Positions 36,451 through 39,527 of a stretch of DNA of 64,000 nucleotides are shown here, piece by piece; within the stretch, counting starts at the first letter, position 1, and each line of letters opens with the position of its first letter. The DNA comes from Hellea sp. Its GTDB lineage: Bacteria > Pseudomonadota > Alphaproteobacteria > Caulobacterales > Maricaulaceae. The stretch spans positions 1-64,000 of the forward strand of contig JAHDDC010000009.1 of the NCBI GenBank assembly GCA_020629545.1, written 5' to 3'. The position numbers and the translations under genes are program-made. Under the pieces are notes generated by a model. The model did no database searches. It was not told where the DNA came from and saw only the letters and a program-made list of their open reading frames with translations.

Positions 36451-36470
36451 GGCAGTGGGTCAGTTTGAAA
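36451..36470 (+). repeat. left terminal inverted repeat
   Basis: GGCAGTGGGTCAGTTTGAAA. Confidence 0.94.
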
Positions 36471-36512
36471 TTAGGCCCTAGAATATATATGATTTGACCT
36501 TATATATCTCTC

Positions 36513-36737
36513 ATGACCAAAATTACATGTAGTTGCGGCGCGGTTTACTTGGAAAAAAAGCACAAACTGACAATGCGAGATAAAGACAAAAAGCACTGTC
36601 AGCTTTGCGGTGAAGTTATTAGTTCTTGGAACGGCGCAGTTATGTACACATATGAGCTAATATCGCGACCAGAAAACTCCAATGATTTAAACTTATCAGC
36701 AAAATCTATTGTTGATAAAATCACCAAATCTAACTGA
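36513..36737 (+). CDS. small zinc-ribbon-like protein (74 aa)
   Basis: CSCGAVY...KKHCQLCGEVISSWNG: CxC and CxxC knuckles. Inside the transposon. Confidence 0.7.
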   Translation: MTKITCSCGAVYLEKKHKLTMRDKDKKHCQLCGEVISSWNGAVMYTYELISRPENSNDLNLSAKSIVDKITKSN

Positions 36738-37887
36738 AGAGCGGCAACCCCTCGCCAGGCTTATAGGACTTTTTCTTGAATGGGTCGTATGTCATTTTAG
36801 GGGGCCGCGCCTTGTCACGAATTTCTAAAATTTGCCGTGAAGCAGTATAATACCTTCCGCGCTTTTCACCATTCGCAATTAAAAGTCCAGCTTCAGCTAT
36901 AGCTGTAAGGTCTCGACTTCCAGTATTCTCAGATACATCTGCACTTAAAATATATGAGGCGCGGCGCACTTTTAGGCCCATAGAGGCCTCAACTAGCGCC
37001 AGTGCACATCTTGGCGGCAAGTTGTTGTCTAAGACGAGTGTGTAAAACTCCTTGAAGGTATTGTTTACCTCTTGAATACGTCTTAGGTGTGTCCCGGCCT
37101 GCCTGTAGTGCGCGGTCAAACAAAATCTAACCCACGGTTTAGCGTCGCGCTCAGGATTCCAGCTTCCACCCCCTACTTCCGCCAGTACGTCGTAGTATTC
37201 TTGTTGGTTGTGCCCGATATACTCTTCAATGCTAGAGAAGATTGGAGCAATCACACCATCATTGGCCATAACGGCAGTCTGCAAGCCCCTAGCGACACGT
37301 CCGTTCCCATCTGAAAAGGGGTGCATTATTGTTAGATTTAGGTGGGTCATAGCAGCCTGAAGCATTTTGGCCTCATTTGGCGCGTTCATATATCTTATCA
37401 ACTCGTCAAGAAGATCATTTAATATTGCTCTATCTGCCCCCTCGTGAACATATTCGCCTGTGCGAGTGCTTCTCACGCCGATCCAGCCGGGCCTTAGCTG
37501 ACCCGGACGCGCTTTAAGGTCATGCTGGGTAATCATATAATGGATCGCGAGGATATTATCTAAGCTGAACTTAAAGCTTGGACGTCTTACCTGCTGCAAA
37601 ATAAATCCCATTGCCTCTTGATACCCGCGAACAGCAGAGTAGGTTTCACGGTCTGCTTCTGATGGGTCAGTATTATCGATGACAGCTAGCGCATCTTCAT
37701 CCGATACGTGAATATCCTCAATCTCATTTGTTGCACGCAGCGCCTTTGCTCTAGTAATTCGGGATAGCAATCCGCTCCAGCGCCTTGGCTCTTGCTGGAC
37801 GTAACTTCTAAGCGCTTCCCTCATCTCAAATATGCGGTTTACGACGCGAAGCTCATCCTCATCATAAGAACGATATGTGAACAACAT
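36730..37887 (-). CDS. Fic family protein (putative AMPylase), C-terminal winged-helix-like region
   Basis: HPFSDGNGRVAR matches HPFx[D/E]GNGRxxR. Start set to MLFTYRSYDEDE at 37887. Confidence 0.92.
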   Translation of the reverse strand: MLFTYRSYDEDELRVVNRIFEMREALRSYVQQEPRRWSGLLSRITRAKALRATNEIEDIHVSDEDALAVIDNTDPSEADRETYSAVRGYQEAMGFILQQVRRPSFKFSLDNILAIHYMITQHDLKARPGQLRPGWIGVRSTRTGEYVHEGADRAILNDLLDELIRYMNAPNEAKMLQAAMTHLNLTIMHPFSDGNGRVARGLQTAVMANDGVIAPIFSSIEEYIGHNQQEYYDVLAEVGGGSWNPERDAKPWVRFCLTAHYRQAGTHLRRIQEVNNTFKEFYTLVLDNNLPPRCALALVEASMGLKVRRASYILSADVSENTGSRDLTAIAEAGLLIANGEKRGRYYTASRQILEIRDKARPPKMTYDPFKKKSYKPGEGLPLFS

Positions 37888-37937
37888 GAGTGTTTCCCTT
37901 TTAGTATTTGTCAAGGAGATATTATAATAACAACCAA

Positions 37938-37958
37938 ATGTCAATTATTAATTGACAT
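37938..37958. promoter_or_regulatory. 21-bp perfect palindrome (odd centre) between divergent fic and transposase genes
   Basis: ATGTCAATTA-T-TAATTGACAT; a second imperfect inverted repeat, ATAACACC-AAAT-GGTGGTTAT, overlaps it by 2 nt at 37957..37977. Confidence 0.7.
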
Positions 37959-37986
37959 AACACCAAATGGTGGTTATATAAACACC

Positions 37987-38874
37987 ATGAATAGACCGGA
38001 CACAAAAGAACGCGCTCAAATCCTGCAGATGCTTTGTGAGGGCATGGCAATCCGCGCCGTCGCTCGCATTACTGGAAGAAGTAAAAATACGATCTCGAAG
38101 CTTCTGGTGGATGCTGGCAAGGTCTGTAGCGCTTATCAAGACGAACACTTCCGCGATCTGGAAGCGCGCCGCGTTGAGGTCGACGAAATCTGGTCATTCG
38201 TATATACCAAGAAAAAGAATGTAGCTAAAGCTAAGGATGCGCCAGAAGGTGCGGGTGATATCTGGACTTGGACTGCAATCGACGCTGATAGCAAGCTGGT
38301 TATGTCTTGGCTCGTTGGTGGCCGCGACGGCGAATACGCATTGTCGTTCATGGACGACATGAAAAGCCGCCTTGCTAATCGGGTCCAGCTTACTTCTGAC
38401 GGTCATAGAGCGTATCTGGATGCTGTAGAAGAAGCTTTCGGCGCTGACGTAGACTATGCCCAATTGGTTAAGATGTATGGCAATGCGCCGGAAACCTTTA
38501 GAGGCCGCTACAGCCCCGCAACATGCACAGGCATCAAGAAAACCCGTATAGAGGGAGACCCTGATACTCATAAGGTCAGCACTTCTTACGTTGAGCGCCA
38601 GAACCTGACAATGCGGATGCACAATCGCCGCTTTACTCGCCTGACAAATGCCTTTTCAAAAAAGGTCGAAAATCATGAGGCATCAATCGCTCTTCACTTC
38701 ATGTACTATAACTTCGTCAAGATCCACAAGACGCTGAAATGCTCACCTGCTATGGCCGCAGGCGTCACCGATAAGCTTTGGGAAATGACCGATATCGTTT
38801 CAATGATTGAGCGCGCAGAGGAGCAAGGACGCCCAAAGAAACGCGGGCCATATAATAAAAAGAGGGCGGCGTAA
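37987..38874 (+). CDS. IS1-family-like DDE transposase (single ORF)
   Basis: HTH AVARITGRSKNTISKLLVDAG; VEVDEIWSF, LTSDGHRAYL and YVERQNLTMRMHNRRFTRLTNAFSKK catalytic blocks. Confidence 0.9.
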   Translation: MNRPDTKERAQILQMLCEGMAIRAVARITGRSKNTISKLLVDAGKVCSAYQDEHFRDLEARRVEVDEIWSFVYTKKKNVAKAKDAPEGAGDIWTWTAIDADSKLVMSWLVGGRDGEYALSFMDDMKSRLANRVQLTSDGHRAYLDAVEEAFGADVDYAQLVKMYGNAPETFRGRYSPATCTGIKKTRIEGDPDTHKVSTSYVERQNLTMRMHNRRFTRLTNAFSKKVENHEASIALHFMYYNFVKIHKTLKCSPAMAAGVTDKLWEMTDIVSMIERAEEQGRPKKRGPYNKKRAA

Positions 38875-38876
38875 AA

Positions 38877-39278
38877 ATGCCAATTAGTTTTTTCCCAAGA
38901 GCAGGGCAAATTTTTACCTGCAACTTTAAAGGCTTTGTTGCTCCAGAAATGGTCAAAATAAGGCCGGTTATTGTTATTTCACCGAGGCTGCCGGGCCGAT
39001 CTGAAATCGTAGCTGTGGTACCGATAAGCCTTACGCCCCCAAACAAGGAATATCCGTTTACTGTCCGGTTATCAAAAAATTACCATCCAGACGAAGAGGA
39101 TGATTTACCTTGCTGGGCCAAATGTGATATGATTTTGAATATTTCAAAAGATAGGCTTTCTTCATTTAAGGTTGGTCGAAGGAAGTGGCATACACCGAAC
39201 GCCTCAGCAGAGGATTTACGAGCGGTTAAGGACGGCGTGATACATGGATTAGGTAGAGGGGACTTGCTAAGTCAGTAA
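38877..39278 (+). CDS. PemK/MazF-like toxin family protein
   Basis: AGQIFTCNFKG...KIRPVIVISPRLPGRSEIVAVVPIS fold signature; 2 nt after the transposase stop. Confidence 0.82.
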   Translation: MPISFFPRAGQIFTCNFKGFVAPEMVKIRPVIVISPRLPGRSEIVAVVPISLTPPNKEYPFTVRLSKNYHPDEEDDLPCWAKCDMILNISKDRLSSFKVGRRKWHTPNASAEDLRAVKDGVIHGLGRGDLLSQ

Positions 39279-39298
39279 AAAACCCTTATATATTCTGA

Positions 39299-39420
39299 GT
39301 ATCCCGGTCTTCGGGCTTTAAGACCTAGATTACTAGGCAGGGTGCTCACCGAGCGATGACAAGCTCAGAGTAGCCTAGATAATGTCAATGTCCTTAACCC
39401 TGCTCCGGCAGGGTTTCGTA
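39299..39420 (+). ncRNA. putative structured noncoding RNA at right end of the transposon
   Basis: No ORF; helices GGTCTT/AAGACC, ATTACTAGGC/GCCTAGaTAAT, GAGC/GCTC and 8-bp AACCCTGC-TCCG-GCAGGGTT; promoter-like TTGCTA-17nt-TTATAT just upstream. Confidence 0.6.
39396..39416 (+). terminator. terminator-like hairpin AACCCTGC-TCCG-GCAGGGTT-T
   Basis: Perfect 8-bp stem with tetraloop, but only a short U run. Confidence 0.5.
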
Positions 39421-39436
39421 TTTCTGGAAAACAATT

Positions 39437-39456
39437 TTTCAAACTGACCCACTACC
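39437..39456 (-). repeat. right terminal inverted repeat
   Basis: TTTCAAACTGACCCACTACC. Confidence 0.94.
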
Positions 39457-39464
39457 GATTTTCA
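39457..39464. repeat. target site duplication (right copy) GATTTTCA
   Basis: Matches 36443..36450. Confidence 0.93.
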
Positions 39465-39527
39465 GGGTGACTTGTAGTTTTGCTTTTTGATCCCTAGATT
39501 AAAGACCAAAGCCATCAGGAGCACGCC

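Follow-up and report, generated by a model that had tools for sequence, protein, structure and literature searches.

RNA-restrained toxins and the pemK locus

In the classical type III toxin-antitoxin systems (ToxIN, CptIN, TenpIN, and AbiQ), the RNA gene is located upstream of the toxin gene, consists of tandem repeats, and shares its promoter with the toxin (PMC5086642). For AbiF/RCd22, direct neutralization of the Abi_2 toxin protein by RNA has been demonstrated (PMC12373285). The toxin of AvcID is also restrained by an RNA antitoxin, and this system was termed type III (PMC10511110).

In the present study, we analyzed a 64,000-nt stretch of a Hellea sp. contig (the window), which contains an IS1-family transposon of 3.0 kb (36451..39456, unstranded). 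The element is bounded by 20-nt terminal inverted repeats (TIRs; 36451-36470 and 39437-39456, 95% complementary), is flanked by the 8-bp target duplication GATTTTCA, and carries a pair consisting of pemK and a structured RNA. The pemK gene (38877..39278, plus strand), the partner of the RNA, starts 2 nt past the stop codon of the IS1-family transposase (37987..38874, plus strand; PF03400, E 1e-7), and the RNA segment is situated between the pemK stop codon and the right TIR. The 133-aa product belongs to the PemK/MazF family of endoribonuclease toxins (PF02452, E 1.6e-16) and, on the basis of a fold predicted with a pLDDT of 95.7 and of MazF structures as the top PDB matches, is modeled as retaining the MazF fold. 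Arg29 and Ser51 were invariant among 43 homologues and, as read from the alignment, would correspond to the Arg and Thr of the MazF catalytic site. In Pfam, all 43 homologues matched PF02452 and none matched a type III toxin family (ToxN, CptN, or TenpN).

The pemK-RNA pair is like ToxIN, CptIN, TenpIN, and AbiQ in combining an endoribonuclease of the MazF/Kid-like fold with a pseudoknotted RNA and a terminator, and in occurring on both plasmids and chromosomes (PMC5086642). However, the pemK RNA lies downstream of the toxin gene, is a single unit without repeats, and has its own promoter-like sequence, and the toxin is a PF02452 protein rather than ToxN, CptN, or TenpN. Because the pair departs from these systems in gene order, promoter, toxin family, and the absence of repeats, we do not file it under classical type III. 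In the broad genetic sense of type III, a structured, pseudoknotted RNA is linked here to an RNase toxin with no protein antitoxin, and the pair probably works like a type III system. As in AbiF/RCd22, a structured noncoding RNA of about 100-130 nt with a promoter and a terminator is found beside the toxin gene (PMC12373285); in AbiF/RCd22, however, the protein is related to Abi_2 and Cas13, and the RNA, which contains two repeated motifs (RF03085), precedes the toxin gene as the leader of its transcript. AvcID shares the RNA-restrained toxin and is set apart by the toxin, a deoxycytidylate deaminase. The PF02452 toxin with the MazF fold is that of MazEF/PemIK (type II), but the adjacent gene for the protein antitoxin (MazE or PemI) is missing and an RNA gene is present instead. 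No prior description of a pemK-linked RNA was found in the open-access literature, and since the search covered open-access papers, we regard the novelty as provisional.

Fold and covariation of the RNA

The predicted transcript of about 120 nt (39301..39420, plus strand) was matched over its full length by the models R1 (127 bits, E 2.8e-24) and R2 (107 bits), both of which include the window RNA itself as one row. A sequence-only reading of the window had proposed a candidate novel structured RNA, and a structured RNA outside Rfam was borne out: neither the window RNA nor its homologues at 14 related loci reached the gathering score of any Rfam 15 family, with weak chance matches at the E-value level, and the covariation described below was strong. 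The folding energy of the segment was -47.0 kcal/mol, compared with -38.3 +/- 3.9 kcal/mol for shuffled sequences (z -2.26; 4 of 200 shuffles folded as well), and the signal of the opposite strand was weaker (z -1.19). No tandem repeats were found in 39200-39470, and the fold is single-unit.

All of the pairings quoted in the sequence-only reading are present, and several of them belong to one conserved fold. Two that it had regarded as competing, CCCG (39303-39306) with CGGG (39312-39315) and CCTAG (39324-39328) with CTAGG (39333-39337), are the plus-strand hairpins P1 (39303..39315) and P2 (39324..39337); both were 100% paired in alignment A2, and in alignment A3 all four P1 pairs changed on both sides, while P2 covaried in A2 and A3. 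The linker CTTTAAGACC into P2 (39316..39325, plus strand) corresponds to mostly invariant columns of A2. The main helix P3a (39340-39347 with 39368-39375, plus strand), which had been missed, showed two-sided changes at 8/8 pairs in A3; the window copy is interrupted by a single G-G mismatch. It encloses P3b, which had been noted as GAGC/GCTC (39351-39354 with 39363-39366, plus strand; 4/4 pairs two-sided in A3), and P3b is closed by a conserved octaloop, GATGACAA (39355-39362, plus strand; consensus GAnnnCAA). The second element that had escaped notice is a pseudoknot (39357..39387, plus strand), in which TGACA of the loop (39357-39361) pairs with TGTCA of the tail (39383-39387). The 8-bp hairpin described for the 3' end is the terminator-like P4, AACCCTGC-TCCG-GCAGGGTT (39396..39415, plus strand), which is followed by a T-rich stretch, was detected by the terminator scan, and was 100% paired in A2.

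Covariation was assessed on two alignments of homologues. In A2 (32 sequences), the structure has 35 pairs including the pseudoknot; 96.6% of the cells were paired, and 19/35 pairs showed two-sided changes. The covariation score was 0.296, compared with 0.157 +/- 0.008 after shuffling (0/500), and the signal was lost when the partners were slid. RNAalifold, unguided by the structure, recovered the same helices except for the pseudoknot. In A3 (54 sequences), two-sided changes were observed in 27/29 pairs, with a score of 0.615 against 0.205 +/- 0.009; A3 was aligned with R1 and is therefore fitted to the structure, and the best slid control was far lower (0.153). Both A3 and R2 were built partly from loci later counted with them.

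For the pseudoknot, the loop paired better with its own tail than with swapped tails (4.61 versus 3.10 +/- 0.20; 0/3000). The same was found outside clade A (3.72 versus 1.96 +/- 0.37; 0/3000) and when only loop variants were used (1/3000). Compensatory variants include GCCAA/TTGGC, ATGGCAA/TTGCCAT, and GAACGCAA/TTGCGTTC. The tail partner of the octaloop is located 5' of the terminator-like hairpin in close relatives and 3' of it in distant ones, and in about a third of the 29 non-clade-A sequences, pseudoknot pairing of at least 4 bp was absent. Judged from these comparisons, the segment is a conserved, structured, pseudoknotted RNA.

Linkage to pemK and the protein antitoxin

Searching 299 genomes of the order at the DNA level returned three strong matches (77-83% identical) plus a fourth, short one; each of the four directly follows a pemK homologue, and a single one adjoins an IS1-family transposase. 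A profile search of genome contigs with the pemK alignment gave 60 loci, and a search of the class gave 13 genomes. The motif follows shortly past the pemK stop codon at nearly all loci, although pemK identity drops to about 31%. The loci, many of them from metagenome-assembled genomes (MAGs), are mostly from Alphaproteobacteria, with others from Gamma- and Betaproteobacteria and one from a Nitrospirae MAG. More copies beside pemK were found in a Citrobacter plasmid, Polaromonas and Fluviibacter plasmids, a gonococcal record, and a tailless Vibrio phage; a DNA-level plasmid search with the RNA gave generic terminator matches only.

Among 63 full-length pemK homologues, 61 have the RNA downstream (R2, E < 0.05; R2 was partly built from the counted loci, and R1 was not built from divergent ones), and the two exceptions (L089 and L121) each have an apparent truncated relic of it. 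In 398 kb of loci, R1, built from 32 sequences, picked up about 31 additional copies; every one adjoins pemK, apart from antisense echoes of the terminator. In 34 of 36 whole genomes there was an RNA match, usually one per genome and at the pemK site, and three extra matches were each beside a second, divergent pemK. Most matches of at least 40 bits in the class and phylum surveys also adjoin pemK. The weak matches of the models in whole genomes (L157-L159, L177, L181, L183-L195, and L203-L206) were rejected as pemK RNA, being mostly gene ends with a terminator. The genes upstream of RNA-type pemK, named by eye, vary and include PheS-like and NAD-synthetase-like genes, IS1 transposase, and a methylase fragment. 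Taken at the level of sequence, the link between the RNA and this PemK subfamily holds regardless of the gene neighborhood.

In several Rhodobacterales-type genomes (L070, L072, and L077-L080), the pemK-RNA pair is right behind an apparent pheS, an insertion site that they share. In the Nitrospirae MAG, an Acido-Lenti-1 RNA (RF01687; L100:3116-3161, minus strand) is just 3' of the pair. The tailless Vibrio phages L163 (PQ189291.1) and L168 have a LexA-like gene and then pemK near one genome end, with about 137 nt between pemK and the RNA in L163. In the small E. coli plasmid p5217 (NC_011799.1; L161), what looks by eye like an inverted and divergent RNA copy is present 3' of a PemK-family gene, but the models gave no match there; no clear RNA was seen in the Klebsiella locus L162.

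As a control, PF02452 genes were collected from the class, where they occur in 36/142 genomes, and 29 other, ordinary loci were fetched. None of the 29 has the RNA. Pfam scans of 22 small ORFs directly upstream of the control genes gave 15 MazE, 2 MazE-like, 2 PrlF, and 1 ribbon-helix-helix matches, among which overlap is possible. A small ORF is directly upstream in 26 of the 61 RNA-type pemK genes examined, and none of the 21 that were scanned matched MazE. Since the control loci lack the RNA and mostly have MazE, and RNA-type pemK is without MazE, the RNA is present at loci that lack the protein antitoxin. Five of the 21 scanned ORFs encode small XRE-type helix-turn-helix (HTH) proteins. 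Such a gene (about 72-95 aa) is recurrent upstream of pemK or of the RNA (L052, L084, L085, L093, L098, and L179), and L179 keeps the HTH gene and an RNA-like copy with no detectable pemK. The XRE-type HTH protein could be a protein regulator or antitoxin, which counts against an RNA antidote.

Possible roles of the RNA

The RNA is probably the antidote of PemK, because it is conserved beside pemK where the usual protein antitoxin is missing, and we consider it likely from the sequences that pemK and the downstream RNA are the two genes of a toxin-antitoxin module whose antidote is an RNA. Weighing against this are the divergent copies in which the pseudoknot is not seen, the HTH genes upstream of five RNA-type pemK genes, the five RNA-like matches that lack a detectable pemK, the partial overlap between the loci behind A3 and R2 and those counted, and the large share of MAG loci. 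In such a module, the RNA would be produced continuously from its own promoter, would fold as P1-P4 plus the loop-tail pseudoknot, and would bind and block the MazF-fold RNase, as ToxI does ToxN. After loss of the element, or once transcription stops, the RNA would vanish sooner than the protein, and the freed RNase would cut RNA and stop growth. On a transposon, the module may serve as stabilizing (addiction) or phage-abortive cargo. With somewhat less assurance, we suppose that the pairs represent a widespread, undescribed class in which PF02452 toxins, now annotated as type II or solitary, are checked by a single-unit, pseudoknotted 3' RNA with its own promoter. If so, one toxin family, PF02452, would have changed its antidote between protein and RNA and would be controllable by either, PemK/MazF genes without an antitoxin gene would be accounted for, one RNA family would be added that Rfam 15 lacks, and IS elements, plasmids, and a tailless phage would be the vehicles of the module. 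At about 0.6 kb, the pair can be tested directly as a unit, and annotation pipelines could use the covariance model to find the remaining copies.

An alternative, which we consider unlikely, is that the RNA acts with the PemK RNase in a ribonucleoprotein effector, as a cofactor or guide by which the enzyme is activated or targeted and not inhibited. A tight association of RNA and protein and the conservation of the active site would fit this as well. However, MazF-family enzymes are active without RNA, no variable guide-like segment was seen, and the presence of the RNA where MazE is missing is a better fit to an antidote.

It is also rather improbable that the RNA is a 3'-UTR element of pemK mRNA that serves its stability, its termination, or autoregulation through cleavage by the toxin, and has no role of its own. 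Such an element would explain why the RNA is usually on the same strand, soon after the stop codon, with a terminator-like hairpin at its end. However, the RNA has its own conserved promoter. The promoter-like box noted in the sequence-only reading is present and is best read as a sigma-70-like promoter (39264..39292, plus strand) with a -35 box TTGCTA (39264-39269) inside the 3' end of pemK, N17, and a -10 box TATATA (39287-39292). It is conserved over 54 loci, in which the -35/-10 pair before the RNA scored a mean of 8.5 of 12, compared with 7.0 +/- 0.12 for shuffled sequences (0/200), and in 28 of which the -10 box ends 7-8 nt ahead of the first position of the RNA model. Furthermore, the RNA gene of Alcanivorax hongdengensis is encoded on the strand opposite to pemK, in convergent orientation, and has its own promoter-like TTTACA-N18-TATAAT. 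RNA-like copies without detectable pemK also exist (L156, L175, L176, L179, and L202) and are possibly orphan antidotes or relics, and the pseudoknot and the full-length covariation exceed the needs of termination. A shortened copy of the RNA was observed beside a HigA-like gene (L197).

A type I-like antitoxin, which would pair with pemK mRNA and block its translation, is very unlikely. The RNA is beside the toxin gene, and the convergent Alcanivorax copy would suit such pairing, but pairing with the pemK start region showed no preference for own partners, at -38.7 kcal/mol against -37.7 +/- 0.75 kcal/mol for swapped ones (521/5000 as good), and the structure is conserved far past a pairing seed.

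The sequence-only reading had suggested a switching RNA or a pseudoknot; the pseudoknot stood in the permutation described above, and the switching was not supported. A riboswitch-like RNA with mutually exclusive helices would account for the several alternative complements in the window sequence, but we give it hardly any credence, since these do not covary whereas one fold does, and there is no consistent downstream gene for it to control. In the proposed GGTCTT/AAGACC helix, 0 pairs were two-sided and 75% of the cells were paired; the ATTACTAGGC/GCCTAGaTAAT helix had 2 two-sided pairs, as in shuffles (1.8), with some other measures slightly above shuffles; and GCAGGGT/ACCCTGC had 0. These alternative helices look like chance complements or by-products beside the conserved fold.

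That the RNA is required for transposition of the IS1-family element, as its position in the window and in Henriciella, with pemK on one side and the right TIR on the other, might suggest, has next to no likelihood and was ruled out by IS1-family loci without pemK, in which the RNA segment is absent, and pemK with the RNA also occurs outside the element, without a transposase. The right TIR beside which the RNA had been placed is real, but the tie to the transposon end failed, as the RNA goes with pemK: the pemK-less IS1 copies without the RNA, together with the four order-level matches 3' of pemK, only one of which is beside a transposase, indicate that the conserved unit is pemK and the RNA, not the RNA and the transposon end. 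The Henriciella element (L046, 1362 to about 4541) is similar to that of the window. Related elements in other genomes have common TIRs, with mostly different cargo or none. The passengers of the window element include an ORF for a cysteine-containing 74-aa protein (36513-36737) and a Fic/DOC protein (36733-37890, minus strand), which resembles SoFic and PADLOC candidate defence models. Fic was also found near a related IS1-family transposase at L029.
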